A stretch of DNA of 33,893 bases from Mollicutes bacterium (lineage in GTDB: Bacteria; Bacillota_I; Bacilli_A; RF39; UBA660), in assembly GCA_012837765.1 (NCBI GenBank), contig DUQO01000062.1, positions 1-33,893 of the forward strand, written 5' to 3'. The notes under the pieces were generated by a model, which searched no databases, was not told the origin of the DNA, and saw only the letters and a list, made by a program, of their open reading frames with translations. Position numbers and translations under genes: made by a program. Positions 17,840-27,026 of the stretch are shown in pieces. Position 1 is the stretch's first letter. Every line of letters starts with the position of its first letter.

Positions 17840-18287
17840 AACACCCTTCCTTACTATCTATAATAATAGTTACTGGACCATCATTGATAAGAGAAACCTT
17901 CATATCTGCACCAAAAACACCTTCTTGTACTTTAAGTCCTTCACTCCTTAAGAGTTCATTAAACTTTTCATATAATGCTTTTGATTCATCATATTTCATT
18001 GCCATATCATAACTTGGTCTTCGTCCTTTTGAAGTGTTAGCATGTAAGGTAAACTGAGAAATTGATAAGATAGATCCTCCACTATTATTTATATCTACAT
18101 TCATTATACCATTTTCATCATCAAATAATCTTATAAATTTAATTTTTTTTACAATATAATTTAAATCTTCTATTGTATCCCCATGAGTAAAACCTACTAA
18201 TAAGACAAATCCTTTATCTATTTGACCAACAATCTTGTTATCTACTGTAACGCTAGCTTCACTAACTCTTTGTATTATCACTCTCAT
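17820..18287 (-). CDS. dtd: D-aminoacyl-tRNA deacylase
   Basis: 155 residues, normal length. Dtd removes D-amino acids, and glycine from mischarged tRNA-Ala, giving chiral proofreading in the cytoplasm. It begins with MRVIIQRVSEASVTVDN. The two active-site signatures are present: LSISQFTLHANTSKGRRPSY (SQFTL motif) and, near the C-terminus, SLINDGPVTIIID (NxGPVT motif). The ATG overlaps the rel stop as ATGA, and the 3' end overlaps the transporter start, so translation is coupled across three genes. rel-dtd adjacency is widespread in Bacillota and supports the identification of the upstream gene. Confidence 0.97.
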   Translation of the reverse strand: MRVIIQRVSEASVTVDNKIVGQIDKGFVLLVGFTHGDTIEDLNYIVKKIKFIRLFDDENGIMNVDINNSGGSILSISQFTLHANTSKGRRPSYDMAMKYDESKALYEKFNELLRSEGLKVQEGVFGADMKVSLINDGPVTIIIDSKEGCYEKNKL

Positions 18288-20443
18288 TTTGTAATACGCT
18301 CCACTTTATGAATATAAGGTATACTTAAAACATCATTTATAAACTTATCTAATTTTGTCTTATCAGGAGCTAAAACGATGATATCGTATACAATATGATC
18401 AAGATGATTGATTGTGTTGATCGCTTGGATATTGATGTTTAGATTAGTTGTTTTACCTATTATTTCTAACAAAAGATTTTCTTTTTGTTCTGCTTCAATT
18501 AAGATGTTAGTAGGCCACCCCTTATCGATATTTTCATTCCATTCAACATTAACAATTCTCTCTTCAACATCAGCTATGTTATGACAAATACTACGATGTA
18601 CAGTTATACCATGTCCTTTAGTAATATAACCAATAATATCATCACCTTTTATTGGCTTACAGCAACTTGCTAATGTTACTTTAATTTCATCTACACCTTC
18701 AACTAATACATCGTTTTTACTGACAGTTGGTTTTACATTTGGTGAAGATAATTTTTCTAATACTATTGTTTCTTTTGTTTTTGGTTCTTTATTAATTAGA
18801 TTGATTACATAAAGAGGTGTAAATTTAGATGAACCAATACTACGATATATATCTTCAATAGATGCTAAATTAAGTGTATCTAGCAAATAATCAATATTTT
18901 TATCTGTAAGGAAGGTTGAGAAAGTAAGTTTTTGTTTACGAAGCTCTTTTTGAAGCATTTCCTCACCACGTTTTATAGCTTCGTCCTTATCAATCTTACT
19001 AAAGAAATTCTTAATTTTTGTTTTAGCTTGAGCTGTTTTAGCTATATTTAACCATTCACGGTTTGGACCCTTGGAATTTTTATTAACATTAATTTTGACA
19101 ATATCGCCATCTTTTAATTCATAGTCAAGTGGTACTATCATTTCATTTACGATAGCTCCAACCATTTTGTCTCCTACTCCCGTATGTACACGATATGCAA
19201 AATCAATTGGAGTACTACCTACTGGCAATTCTATAACATCACCCTTAGGTGTAAATAAATATATATTATCATCTAACACTTCACTTTTTACATTACTTGC
19301 AAATTCTTCAGGATTATTATCCTCGTTATTAAGTTCAATAAGTGATCTAAACATTTGAAGTTTTTGCTCCATAACATTTTGTAAAGATTTACTTCCATCA
19401 GTATGTTCTTTATATGACCAATGTGACGCGATACCATATTCAGCTATCTGATCCATTTCATATGTTCTAATTTGAATTTCAAAAAGGTTTCCATCCACAC
19501 CAAAAATAGTGGTATGAAGTGATTGATACATATTTTCTTTAGGCATTGCTATATAATCTTTAAATCTTTTAGGAACAGGTTTAAACTTTGAATGAATAAG
19601 ACCTAAAGCTAGATAACAATTTTGCTCTGTTTCAACATATACACGAAGTGCTAAAATATCATATATTTCCTTAAAACGTCTTCCCTTTTGCATTTTATTA
19701 TAAATACTATATATACTTTTAGAACGACCTTTTATTTCATGTTTAATATTATTTTGAAGAAGAATATTAGAAATATTTTCTTTCATTTCTTTAATAGCAT
19801 TGTCTCGTTCTACTTTAGTATTATTTAATTTCTTTACAATATCATAATATGCATCTGGTTTATAATAACGAAGTGATAAATCTTCTAACTCACTTTTAAT
19901 ATGATATATACCAAGACGATGGGCTATAGGGGCTAAAATTTCCAATGTTTCTTTAGCTTTTTCCTTTTGCTTATTTTCAGGTATTGCCCACAAAGTACGC
20001 ATATTATGAAGACGATCAGCTAATTTGATATAAATTACCCTAACATCTTCACAAAGACCAACCAAGATCTTTTTATAATAAGTAATTGTATAATTACTAT
20101 CAGCATTAAACGATAATTTGTTTATTTTTGAAATACTACTTACTAAATTACTTATTTCTTCACCAAATACTGATTTTACTTCATCAATAGTGGTGTTATA
20201 ATCTAACACTTCATGAAGTAAGGCTGATGAAATAGTTTGATAATCACTTTTTAATTCAGTTAAAATCATAGCAACATTTAAATGGTGATCAATCAAACCA
20301 TTACCATCAAGTCTTTTTTCACCAAAATATTTGGCATTTCCAAATTCATAAGCTTTCTTTATTATTTCTAAGTCTTTTTTATCTTTTGTATAAGTACTTA
20401 CTTTAGAAAGCAAATCATCAAATACAATTGTTTTGTTTTCCAT
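18284..20443 (-). CDS. rel: Long Rel: (p)ppGpp synthetase with degenerate hydrolase site
   Basis: 719 residues with the full Rel layout: HD hydrolase (about 25-200), synthetase (about 225-345), TGS (392-452), helical region, zinc-finger domain (C594, C595, H616, C620) and ACT/RRM (645-719). Synthetase residues are intact: R240 and K242 (GRSKSIYSIYNKM), D262, RFKD (293-296), N304, Y306, H310 and E322 (FEIQIRT). The hydrolase site is not. R44, H53 and H77 remain, but D78 is Glu, E81 is Asp and D82 is Tyr (LLHEVLDYN against the usual LHDVxEDT), and the DGVTK segment reads SSISK; D143 (ADRLHNMRTL) remains. So it probably makes but does not efficiently degrade (p)ppGpp. AAGGAG precedes the start, 35 bases after secDF. 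Compare the short paralogue at 24769-26244. Confidence 0.95.
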   Translation of the reverse strand: MENKTIVFDDLLSKVSTYTKDKKDLEIIKKAYEFGNAKYFGEKRLDGNGLIDHHLNVAMILTELKSDYQTISSALLHEVLDYNTTIDEVKSVFGEEISNLVSSISKINKLSFNADSNYTITYYKKILVGLCEDVRVIYIKLADRLHNMRTLWAIPENKQKEKAKETLEILAPIAHRLGIYHIKSELEDLSLRYYKPDAYYDIVKKLNNTKVERDNAIKEMKENISNILLQNNIKHEIKGRSKSIYSIYNKMQKGRRFKEIYDILALRVYVETEQNCYLALGLIHSKFKPVPKRFKDYIAMPKENMYQSLHTTIFGVDGNLFEIQIRTYEMDQIAEYGIASHWSYKEHTDGSKSLQNVMEQKLQMFRSLIELNNEDNNPEEFASNVKSEVLDDNIYLFTPKGDVIELPVGSTPIDFAYRVHTGVGDKMVGAIVNEMIVPLDYELKDGDIVKINVNKNSKGPNREWLNIAKTAQAKTKIKNFFSKIDKDEAIKRGEEMLQKELRKQKLTFSTFLTDKNIDYLLDTLNLASIEDIYRSIGSSKFTPLYVINLINKEPKTKETIVLEKLSSPNVKPTVSKNDVLVEGVDEIKVTLASCCKPIKGDDIIGYITKGHGITVHRSICHNIADVEERIVNVEWNENIDKGWPTNILIEAEQKENLLLEIIGKTTNLNINIQAINTINHLDHIVYDIIVLAPDKTKLDKFINDVLSIPYIHKVERITK

Positions 20444-23344: not shown

Positions 23345-24640
23345 ATGAGAAAAAACAAATTCATTAGAGGTACAATTATCCTTATTATTGGAGGCTTTAT
23401 TAGTAAATTGCTGGGAATGGTTACAAAAATAATTACCACTAGATATATAGGTGATGAAGGAATCAGCCTTTACATGCTTATTATGCCTACTTTTTTATTG
23501 TTTCTAAATATATGTCAATTAGGTTTTCCTGTTGCTATATCTAAATTGGTTGCAGAAAATAATAAAAGTAATAAAAAAATAGTATTTTCATCTTTATCTA
23601 TTTCGTTTGTTTTAAATGTTGTCCTACTTATAATAGTATTACTTATAAGTCCTATTATAACTAAACTACTACATGAAAATAGAGTTCTATATCCTCTTAT
23701 GGCAATAGGACTGGTTTTACCTTTTGTTAGTATTTCAAGTATTATTAGAGGTTATTTCTTTGGTAAAGAGAAGATGTTTGCTCATACTACATCAAATATC
23801 TTTGAGCAAATAGTAAGATTAATATTAATTATATTTGTTACCCCAATATTATTAAAACATGGATTAGTAGCTGCTGTAACTGGAGTAGTACTATTAAATA
23901 TCATAAGTGAATTAACATCGATTGTTATTTTGATTTTTTTCTTACCTAAGAAAGTAACAATTAAAAAATCCGATATGAAACCTGATAAAACAATTATAAA
24001 AGATGTGTTAAACATAAGTATTCCTACCACTGGTTCAAGGTTGATAGGATCTATAGGTTACTTTTTAGAACCTATTATTTTAACATCTGTTTTACTTAAA
24101 GTCGGATATTCTAACACTTTCATATTAAATGAATACGGTACTTTAACAGGCTATGTTATGCCTCTTCTAATGATTCCGTCATTTTTCACACAAGCTATAG
24201 GATCAGCTTTAATTCCTGTTATTAGTAAAGGTTATTCGGATAAACACATAACATATGTTAAAAATAAAATTAAGCAAGGAGAACTATTTTCATTTATCAT
24301 AGGTATTTCTGTAACCCTAGTTATTATGTTGTGGCCTAAAACGCTTTTAAGAATTATTTTTAATACTCAAATGGGAAGTAATTATTTAAGATTTATGGCA
24401 CCATTTTATATAGCTTACTATTTACAAGTACCTTTAACTGCCGCTTTACAAGCGATGAATAGAGCGCGTGAAGCTATGATAAGTACCGTCATTGGCGTAT
24501 CTTCAAAAATAGGATTGATGATCATATTATCTTCATTAAGAGTTGGAATGTATGGATTTATCATTGCTGGTATTTCCAATATTTTTATTGTGACTATATA
24601 TAATTATATAAAGGTGAAAAGAGCATTAAATCAATCTTGA
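23345..24640 (+). CDS. SpoVB/MurJ-type lipid flippase (MOP superfamily)
   Basis: 431 residues with about 11-12 membrane segments. MOP-superfamily flippases move lipid-linked cell-wall or polysaccharide precursors across the membrane. Family features include the start KFIRGTIILIIGGFISKLLG, ITTRYIGDEGISLYMLIMPT, QLGFPVAISKLVAENNK and, mid-protein, NISIPTTGSRLIGSIGYFLE. B. subtilis SpoVB is near 518 residues, so the last membrane segments are missing here; the sequence ends cleanly at TGA with YNYIKVKRALNQS. AGGAG lies six bases before the ATG. The place next to comN and secDF is that of spoVB in Bacillus, but no sporulation gene is visible, so a vegetative flippase role is more likely. Confidence 0.88.
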   Translation: MRKNKFIRGTIILIIGGFISKLLGMVTKIITTRYIGDEGISLYMLIMPTFLLFLNICQLGFPVAISKLVAENNKSNKKIVFSSLSISFVLNVVLLIIVLLISPIITKLLHENRVLYPLMAIGLVLPFVSISSIIRGYFFGKEKMFAHTTSNIFEQIVRLILIIFVTPILLKHGLVAAVTGVVLLNIISELTSIVILIFFLPKKVTIKKSDMKPDKTIIKDVLNISIPTTGSRLIGSIGYFLEPIILTSVLLKVGYSNTFILNEYGTLTGYVMPLLMIPSFFTQAIGSALIPVISKGYSDKHITYVKNKIKQGELFSFIIGISVTLVIMLWPKTLLRIIFNTQMGSNYLRFMAPFYIAYYLQVPLTAALQAMNRAREAMISTVIGVSSKIGLMIILSSLRVGMYGFIIAGISNIFIVTIYNYIKVKRALNQS

Positions 24641-24673: not shown

Positions 24674-24750
24674 GCCTCAATAGCTCAGCTGGTTAGAGCA
24701 CTTGACTGTTAATCAAGGGGTCCTAGGTTCAAGTCCTAGTTGAGGCGCCA
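24674..24750 (+). tRNA. tRNA-Asn (GTT), CCA encoded
   Basis: A full cloverleaf. The acceptor GCCTCAA pairs with TTGAGGC, with discriminator G and encoded CCA. The D arm is GCTC..GAGC. The anticodon arm CTTGA-CTGTTAA-TCAAG has anticodon GTT. The T arm CCTAG-GTTCAAGT-CCTAG carries the TTCAA core. It has its own promoter and terminator. Confidence 0.97.
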
Positions 24751-24759
24751 TTAATTGTG

Positions 24760-24795
24760 AAAAAAGTATTAATCATTAGGCATTAATACTTTTTT
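24760..24795. terminator. Bidirectional terminator inside the end of short rel
   Basis: AAAAAAGTATTAAT (24760-24773) and ATTAATACTTTTTT (24782-24795) form a 14-bp stem with an eight-base loop. It ends the tRNA-Asn transcript rightwards and the short rel transcript leftwards, and the rel stop codon (24771-24769) and last codons lie inside it. Confidence 0.85.
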
Positions 24796-26244
24796 GTTTG
24801 TATAAAATTTATTGATTTCTCGTTTAGCATAAGTAGTATCTGCTTTGTCGATCCAATCCAAACTAGGATTAGCCATATCATCGGTTACTATTTTAACTAT
24901 ATCCTTATTTTTTAATTTATAATCCAAATCAACATATTTATCATTTATCAAAGCACCTATCATAGTGTTTCCAATATTTTTATTGATACGATATGCAAAA
25001 TCAATTGGCGTACTACCATTTGGCAATTCTATAATTTCACCCTTTGGAGTATAAACATAAATGTTATCTGAAAACAATTCCCTTTTAGCTTGAAGAAGAA
25101 ATTCTTGATTATCTGCAGTAATCTTATCTAATTCAGAAAGGGATTGGAAAAATTGAAATTTAGTTCTTAAATCTTCCCTCATATAATTAACTGCTTCATT
25201 GCCATATTTTTTCCAGTATGACATTAACCCTTGATAAGCTATTTCATCCATGTCAAAAGTTCTTATTTGACATTGAACAACTTGCCCTTTCCTACCAACA
25301 ACAGTAGTATGAAGTGAACTATACATATTTGTTTTAGGAGATGCAATATAATCCTTAAACTTACCATCAATTGGTTTATATATAGAATGAATTAAACCCA
25401 AAACAAAATAACAGTCTTTCACATTTTCTACTATAACTTTTAATGCTAATAAATCTTGAATATCAGTAATATTTTTCTTTTTTAACATTTTATTATATAT
25501 TCCACAAATGTTTTTTATACGCATTTTTATTTCATGAGGTATTCCTTCGTTACTTAATATAGTTGAGACATTTATTAACATTTCTCCAATAATTTGATTA
25601 TTTTTTTGTCTTATCTTAGTTAATTTTAATTCCATATCCCTATACATATCAGGTTTCAAATATCTTAACGATAGATCCACCAACTCATTTTTCATTTTAA
25701 ATGCACCGATATAATACGCAAGTGGCACATATAATTCCATTGTTTCTAATGAATTTTCTTTTTGTTTAAATTCACTAAGATATTGAAGAGTTCTCATATT
25801 ATGAAGACGGTCCGCTAATTTGATAAGTAGCATTCTTATATCTTCATTCAAGCTCATAATAATTTTACGGTTATTGGTTGCAACAGCTTCTTCTTTGCTT
25901 GAAAAATTTAATTTATTTATTTTCGTTACCCCATCAACTAATGAAGCGACAGTATCGTTAAAAATAGTTGCAATATCTTCTTTAGTAAAATTTATATCTG
26001 ATGTATCTTCTATAACATCATGGAGTAAAGCTGCTGCTATAGTATCAGCATCAGCTTCATATTCAGATAAAATTAAAGCGACAGAAATAGGATGAACAAT
26101 ATATTCTTCCCCACTCTGACGCTTTTGTTCTGCATGTAAAATGTCAGCACAAAGATAAGCATTTATTATCATTTTAATAAGTGATTCATCTTTGATATAT
26201 TTTTTTATATTAAATAATAATTTTTGAAAGAGTTTATTTCCCAT
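24769..26244 (-). CDS. Short Rel homologue: intact hydrolase, degenerate synthetase
   Basis: 491 residues. Layout: HD hydrolase (about 1-200), synthetase-like domain (about 220-345), TGS (393-453) and a short tail; the helical, zinc-finger and ACT/RRM domains of long Rel are absent. The hydrolase residues are all present: R42, H51 (YIVHPISVA), H75 D76, E79 D80 (LLHDVIEDT), D145 and N149 (ADRLHNMRTL). In the synthetase part R242, K244, D264, N306, Y308 and H312 remain, but the catalytic Glu is Gln324 (QCQIRT against FEIQIRT in the long paralogue), the GRxKxxYS signature reads MRIKNICG, and AEYG reads AYQG. It is therefore probably a dedicated (p)ppGpp hydrolase, SpoT-like. ATG 26244 is chosen because AGGAG lies seven bases upstream. 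It is monocistronic, with its own strong promoter. Confidence 0.93.
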   Translation of the reverse strand: MGNKLFQKLLFNIKKYIKDESLIKMIINAYLCADILHAEQKRQSGEEYIVHPISVALILSEYEADADTIAAALLHDVIEDTSDINFTKEDIATIFNDTVASLVDGVTKINKLNFSSKEEAVATNNRKIIMSLNEDIRMLLIKLADRLHNMRTLQYLSEFKQKENSLETMELYVPLAYYIGAFKMKNELVDLSLRYLKPDMYRDMELKLTKIRQKNNQIIGEMLINVSTILSNEGIPHEIKMRIKNICGIYNKMLKKKNITDIQDLLALKVIVENVKDCYFVLGLIHSIYKPIDGKFKDYIASPKTNMYSSLHTTVVGRKGQVVQCQIRTFDMDEIAYQGLMSYWKKYGNEAVNYMREDLRTKFQFFQSLSELDKITADNQEFLLQAKRELFSDNIYVYTPKGEIIELPNGSTPIDFAYRINKNIGNTMIGALINDKYVDLDYKLKNKDIVKIVTDDMANPSLDWIDKADTTYAKREINKFYTNKKVLMPND

Positions 26245-26281
26245 ATAAACACTCCTACTTATAAAGAATTTTGTGTAAGAA

Positions 26282-26471: not shown

Positions 26472-27026
26472 TTATTTTATTAAGCTATGTGTTTTTTTCG
26501 TATTATCTATATATTCCCCATTAATACAAGAATGTTCTATTTCAGATTCCTTTTCAAAAGATAAAGACATATTCTTTGATATTAAAATACTATTAACTAT
26601 ATAACTGACATTTGATAATAGAGTCAAATTATTACTATAAATTAAATTATCAAACAATGTAATACTTGGTGATTTTACTGATAAAGAATTTAACAACTCA
26701 ATTTGACTATTGTTAGTTAAAAAGATTTGACTTTCTCCATCATGACCAAAATTGGTTATTGTAACATTCCCACTAAAGCTACAGTTTTTAAATTCAACAG
26801 ACTCCATTTGACACATAAAATTCAGATTATTTAATAAGCATTTTTCAAATGTATATGTATTGTATATATCTTTCAGAAAAATTTTATACTGTTCGCCATC
26901 TTTTTCGGCAATTTTATCAAAATTGAAATTACTTATTGTATAATGTTCTCCTCTTTTTCCATTTAAATACATATCTCGCTTAGTTTTATTCTCTATATAA
27001 GATCCTAAAATTTTTTTAATATTCAT
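26472..27026 (-). CDS. Hypothetical protein coupled to addA
   Basis: 184 residues, no family recognised. After a basic N-terminus (MNIKKILGSYIENKTKRDMY) the sequence becomes a run of short beta-like segments rich in Asn, Ser, Leu and Ile (CLLNNLNFMCQMESVEFKNC, NVTITNFGHDGESQIFLTNN, SLSVKSPSITLFDNLIYSNN). This spacing resembles a right-handed beta-helix or bactofilin-like repeat protein, inferred from pattern only. It has no signal peptide or membrane segment. The start ATG shares one base with the addA stop (TAATG), so translation is coupled to AddA. The 3' gap to the short rel gene shows no clear terminator. Confidence 0.68.
   Translation of the reverse strand: MNIKKILGSYIENKTKRDMYLNGKRGEHYTISNFNFDKIAEKDGEQYKIFLKDIYNTYTFEKCLLNNLNFMCQMESVEFKNCSFSGNVTITNFGHDGESQIFLTNNSQIELLNSLSVKSPSITLFDNLIYSNNLTLLSNVSYIVNSILISKNMSLSFEKESEIEHSCINGEYIDNTKKTHSLIK

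Follow-up and report, generated by a model that had tools for sequence, protein, structure and literature searches.

A putative hydrolase-only Rel paralogue without ribosome-sensing C-terminal domains in a reduced-genome bacterial family

Known RSH architectures and the two Rel genes of the window

In Rel proteins the helical, zinc-finger and ACT domains serve ribosome binding, and His420 of the TGS domain contacts the 3' CCA end of tRNA. The described architecture closest to the protein reported here, compared by description, is RshC, a second Rel copy in six Bacillus strains (Atkinson et al. 2011; PMC3153485), which keeps TGS but is truncated within the helical domain, is listed as [HS] with both catalytic domains counted competent, and has an ambiguous placement, possibly near the delta-proteobacterial RshD. 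In the Moraxellaceae SpoT[Hs] of A. baumannii (SpoTAb; PDB 7qpr), which derives from the proteobacterial RelA/SpoT duplication, hydrolysis is the only activity, TGS and Core brace the HD site, and the synthetase is a regulatory pseudo-domain (PMC9974481). This enzyme keeps its HEL, ZFD and RRM domains and needs them for full activity, with hydrolysis falling 42-fold on deletion of TGS plus HEL, and strongly reduced in the 1-454 form, which is the one most like our protein (PMC9974481). On the other hand, S. aureus Rel engineered to lack its whole C-terminal region, with synthetase residues intact, stays hydrolase-ON in its own host (PMC6053245), while small alarmone hydrolases (Mesh1-like) work without ribosome control as a single HD domain, about 180-220 aa long among those encountered.

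We analysed a 33,893-nucleotide stretch of DNA (the window) from a Mollicutes bacterium, in which two Rel genes lie 4.3 kb apart among the following features.

18284-20443, minus strand: long Rel paralogue (P0002), 719 aa, between a SecDF-like gene and dtd
23345-24640, plus strand: SpoVB-like flippase adjoining the short Rel gene (322 bits, under the equivalog cut-off of 372)
24674-24750, plus strand: tRNA-Asn(GTT), 18 bases past the short Rel stop codon
24769-26244, minus strand: short Rel paralogue (P0001), 491 aa, exact ORF with an ATG start at 26244
26252..26257, minus strand: Shine-Dalgarno-like TAGGAG shortly 5' of the ATG at 26244, read from the sequence
26310-26282, minus strand: promoter-like TTGACA-17-TATTAT, an 11/12 match, 37 bases before the ATG of the short Rel gene
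26472-27026, minus strand: 184-aa protein of no known family, between addAB-like genes and the short Rel gene, in the same place in a same-genus genome (G001)

The position of the TTGACA-17-TATTAT match suggests that the short Rel gene has its own promoter, a case that is positional only, as the total of such matches in the region was not above that in shuffled sequences. No conserved neighbour gene or operon partner of the short Rel was found across relatives, with neighbours differing beyond the genus.

The full-length Rel, which the earlier note had overlooked, contains a TGS domain with His420, AH/RIS, the zinc-finger cysteines and an ACT domain, and lies next to dtd, an arrangement found in Listeria too. 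Its synthetase residues are intact (EIQIRT), but its hydrolase motif reads HEVLDY where HDxxED is expected. In a genome-wide search of the 1.0-Mb assembly (93.6% complete), the short and long genes were the only synthetase-domain and the only HD_4 genes found.

Architecture, distribution and catalytic residues of the short Rel

A Pfam search of the 491-aa protein returned HD_4 (31-177), RelA_SpoT (242-345) and TGS (395-454) domains, with a folded linker or 'Core' at ~346-392 between pseudo-synthetase and TGS, and no helical, zinc-finger or ACT domain. After TGS there are 37 residues, with one terminal helix, and then the stop, which bears out the earlier note's observation that TGS was kept without the ribosome-sensing C-terminal domains. 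The protein belongs to the long-type RSH superfamily (TIGR00691 spoT_relA, 524 bits against a cut-off of 499, profile 1-452 of 687), and its synthetase and TGS domains set it apart from the HD-only small alarmone hydrolases, although like these it is predicted to be a hydrolase without ribosome control. It has the architecture described for RshC, with HD, synthetase and TGS kept and an end within the helical domain, and is likewise a divergent additional copy accompanying a normal Rel.

We then fetched Rel genes from 63 genomes of the family holding a long Rel. Complete short Rels were present in 34 of these (37 copies, three genomes having two each), a further one (G079) carried a partial short Rel in L152 together with a stop-interrupted copy at L176:1987-3453, and in the remaining 28 genomes no short Rel was found. 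The 37 complete copies were 460-539 aa in length, including one of 489 aa and 64% identity in the same-genus genome, and nearly all ended 0-17 residues past the first post-TGS helix, the exception being the G034 protein, which has no such helix. Judged by length and end point, all 37 are without the helical, zinc-finger and ACT/RRM domains. Among the matches listed from other families of the class there was no short form; besides contig-end pieces and genomes reading TGA as a residue, these were full-length Rels.

This consistency of length and end point, the check by which the earlier note proposed to exclude a truncating mutation, identifies a conserved form, and the full-length orthologues with a frameshift here that would have spoken for truncation were not found among the 34 genomes. 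As the tRNA-Asn gene lies directly past the stop codon there is also no space for a lost C-terminal remnant, and tblastn of the whole window with the C-terminal half of the long paralogue recovered the long gene alone. Truncation or frameshift of the short Rel gene was rejected on these grounds.

Residues were compared in RelSeq numbering. The hydrolase residues R44, H53, H77, D78, E81, D82, D144, N148 and T151 are intact in 37/37 short Rels. The synthetase residue E323 is gone from every one of them, with Q in 36 (Q324 in this protein) and K in one, while all 82 long Rels from the family and the rest of the class, as well as seven named reference Rels, have E there. The RelSeq substitutions E323Q and D264G each abolish detectable synthetase activity (PMC13299517, citing Hogg et al.), and the loss of E323 agrees with the earlier note's remark on a dead synthetase domain. 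At the sequence level this is the [Hs] pattern of an intact hydrolase site with a lost synthetase residue, and without E323 and the helical, zinc-finger and ACT/RRM domains the protein is no Rel[HS]. The replaced E323 also distinguishes it from RshC. Family models nonetheless score the short proteins as ordinary RelA/SpoT, which calls for caution in annotation. The TGS His420 is kept in 82/82 long Rels but lost from 15/37 short Rels, this one included (N421), and the same His has been lost from the TGS of SpoTAb (PMC9974481). The hinge between HD and synthetase domains is more variable in the short Rels (with frequent K-to-E changes at position 212 and R-to-S changes at 215), although the (p)ppGpp hinge site was mapped only approximately and this variability supports no claim of its loss.

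The structure prediction proposed by the earlier note gave a confident, compact AlphaFold2 model of the short Rel (mean pLDDT 91.9, pTM 0.89, 37-sequence alignment), with Core and TGS ordered and a single helix after TGS. Using Foldseek, the catalytic half resembled S. aureus Rel (TM 0.95 by target), but the whole model matched B. subtilis Rel and SpoT at TM 0.58-0.66, with a different placement of domains. The match of the whole model to the compact state of SpoTAb was likewise poor (TM 0.58-0.60, rmsd 14-15), and the scaffold arrangement is therefore not confirmed in the short protein. The long Rel gave a much weaker model (pTM 0.48, 22-sequence alignment), a contrast compatible with a more rigid short protein but only suggestive of it, as the alignment depths differ (37 vs 22).

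Origin and selection

Trees were built from alignments with the catalytic motif columns removed, and included 19 further Rels of the class and 7 named outgroup Rels. The short Rels formed one clade and the long Rels of the family another, and the two were sisters, with SH-aLRT support of 99 and 98, respectively, in the first tree, and bootstrap/SH-aLRT support of 100/99 and 99/94 in a more careful tree with the seven named outgroups. The same-class and named outgroup Rels, E. coli SpoT included, fell outside this grouping, so the short Rel does not come from the beta/gamma-proteobacterial RelA/SpoT duplication. Its position as sister to the long Rel of its own family also differs from the ambiguous placement given for RshC. 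Because the short and long Rels are sister clades, the simplest account of these sequences is a single Rel duplication no later than the base of the family, with subsequent losses, or transfers among family members. An alternative is that the short Rel arrived by horizontal transfer from outside the lineage, and its patchy distribution, a gene neighbourhood conserved only within the genus, the presence of two short Rels in some genomes and some long branches among them could be read in this way. However, the sister relationship holds at 100/99 against same-class, Clostridia, Bacilli and E. coli outgroups and no short form appeared among the matches listed from other families of the class, making an outside source highly unlikely. 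Transfer of the short gene between members of the family is possible.

We compared conservation within the 34 genomes containing both copies. Mean identity in the HD domain was 0.595 among the short Rels vs 0.543 among the long Rels, while in the synthetase domain it was 0.462 vs 0.657 and in TGS 0.472 vs 0.709. In close pairs of short Rels dN/dS was about 0.04-0.19 across domains, with values of 0.05-0.19 in the synthetase domain and 0.04-0.10 in TGS and the tail together; overall, dN/dS among the short Rels was about 0.07-0.14. The pseudo-synthetase and TGS domains of the short Rels are under purifying selection, constrained less than in the long Rels, and this selection indicates that the retained domains do something. 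A truncated duplicate decaying without function would explain the lost C-terminal domains and synthetase chemistry, the 28/63 genomes in which no short Rel was found and the stop-interrupted copy in G079, but it leaves unexplained both the low overall dN/dS and a hydrolase site intact in every short Rel across dozens of genera. As a general account of the short Rels functionless decay is refuted by this pattern of conservation, and we consider it extremely improbable.

Retained domains and the division of alarmone synthesis and breakdown

We infer that the short Rel is probably a hydrolase-only [Hs] RSH paralogue uncoupled from the ribosome, with pseudo-synthetase and TGS kept as a scaffold. 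An ancestral bifunctional Rel would have duplicated before this reduced-genome family diversified, with the long copy keeping ribosome-controlled ppGpp synthesis while its hydrolase site became degenerate here and in about half of the genomes examined, and the short copy keeping hydrolysis while losing both the synthetase glutamate E323, replaced by Q or K, and the C-terminal helical, zinc-finger and ACT domains. The short protein would then degrade (p)ppGpp independently of the ribosome, and its pseudo-synthetase, Core and TGS may form one compact unit bracing the HD site in a hydrolysis-competent shape, a model that copies the role of Core and TGS in A. baumannii SpoT.

By its residues the short Rel should work like Moraxellaceae SpoT[Hs], although by descent it is no SpoT. 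Like that enzyme it combines a hydrolase-only set of residues and a pseudo-synthetase with the loss, in many copies and in this one, of the tRNA-reading His of TGS, and has a partner synthetase paralogue in the genome; unlike it, the short Rel has no HEL, ZFD or RRM. In addition, SpoTAb has a shortened alpha6-alpha7 loop and Core, which was not seen in the short Rels, where these have medians of 18 and 51 residues, about as in the long Rels. Convergence with Moraxellaceae SpoT[Hs] is the best reading of these likenesses and differences. If the dependence of SpoTAb on its tail is valid here, the short Rel would be a weak enzyme, and since C-terminal deletions of SpoTAb lose much of their activity, predicting an efficient hydrolase without the tail puts the model to a real test. 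Loss of the regulatory tail is shared with the S. aureus deletion construct. The short Rel is a natural counterpart of the HD-to-TGS truncation that cripples A. baumannii SpoT, while S. aureus Rel hydrolyses tail-less. As an enzyme apparently selected to work without its tail, it would allow what TGS, Core and tail each do in hydrolysis to be tested.

Other roles can be proposed for the retained domains. The pseudo-synthetase could be a nucleotide sensor, in which an E323Q pocket binds without catalysis and switches the hydrolase on or off in place of ribosome input. Consistent with this, D264, N306, Y308 and H312 are retained in 37/37 short Rels, K304 in 36/37 and both K297 and K243 in 33/37, Q is fixed at position 323 in all but one copy though mean identity in the domain is only 46% between short Rels, and dN/dS is low in this domain. 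However, R241 is retained in only 27/37 and R269 in none, positions invariant in the long Rels are consistently swapped (S248G, P293N, R295K, H343Y), the pseudo-synthetase of SpoTAb regulates without (p)ppGpp allostery (PMC9974481), and folding constraint alone could account for the conservation. On balance we regard a sensor as rather doubtful. A broader version, by which the family has re-invented the RelA/SpoT split and the E323Q pocket, binding nucleotide unreacting, gates a ribosome-free hydrolase, seems to us somewhat less likely still, but if true would mean that alarmone breakdown tracks nucleotide supply while synthesis tracks the ribosome.

Alternatively TGS could dock a protein that controls hydrolysis, either acyl carrier protein (ACP), which is known to partner SpoT in E. 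coli (PMC3153485), or another, and the retention of TGS under purifying selection fits such a role. Yet the PP-binding domain (PF00550) had no match in this genome or in 51/59 family genomes, most of the short-bearing ones included, using a search that was positive in 11/14 known genomes as a control, and ACP is accordingly disfavoured as a general TGS ligand. Docking is further opposed by the lack of a conserved neighbour gene and by a TGS identity lower among the short than among the long Rels, and retention is accounted for by scaffolding of the hydrolase site, the simpler role that TGS has in the hydrolase-only A. baumannii SpoT (PMC9974481). We therefore consider docking improbable. Of the earlier note's proposal that such a hydrolase may keep its dead synthetase and TGS domains as a regulatory platform, a conserved tail-less hydrolase form retaining both domains is supported and the ACP example is not.

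We finally assessed how far the two genes divide their functions. In this genome the residues of the two Rel proteins give good sequence-level support for a complete division of labour. Synthetase function appears kept in 63/63 long Rels of the family, with the residues checked nearly invariant, and the hydrolase site is incomplete or degenerate in 35/63, this genome's included. The aspartate of the HD motif is glutamate (HE) in the long Rels of 24/63 genomes, on separate parts of the tree, as it is in 18284-20443. A short Rel accompanied a degenerate long Rel in 23/35 genomes vs an intact one in 12/28 (p = 0.08, not significant), counting other HD_4 proteins as well gave p = 0.059 (not significant), and a tree-based pair test was underpowered; coupling of a degenerate long Rel with presence of the short one is suggestive only. 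In seven genomes with a degenerate long Rel, neither a short Rel nor another convincing HD_4 hydrolase was found (L075 in G028, L053 in G014, L131 in G064, L132 in G065, L133 in G066, L156 in G082 and L165 in G089), for which the explanation may lie in incomplete MAGs, in some activity left to the HE variant or in a different class of enzyme. Complete division of labour is not supported as a family-wide rule. Nevertheless, a bifunctional Rel seems here to have been duplicated and split, independently and outside Proteobacteria, into synthetase-type and hydrolase-type genes. The split is old and conserved across the family and looks like a repeat of the E. coli RelA/SpoT division, with the hydrolase-type copy also shedding its ribosome-sensing tail.

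Other arrangements were observed in relatives. Four genomes (G007, G008, G032 and G023) encode proteins of ~445-650 aa in which a Rel-like HD_4 hydrolase domain is fused to an AAA_28 P-loop (kinase-like) domain (L166:1039-2388, L167:765-2099, L168:931-2271 and L169:704-2662), one with an additional HD domain. In G075, in which the search found no long Rel, genes for a synthetase-only protein of 202 aa and an HD_4 protein of 247 aa overlap (L178:815-2153), a pair resembling a small alarmone synthetase and hydrolase.
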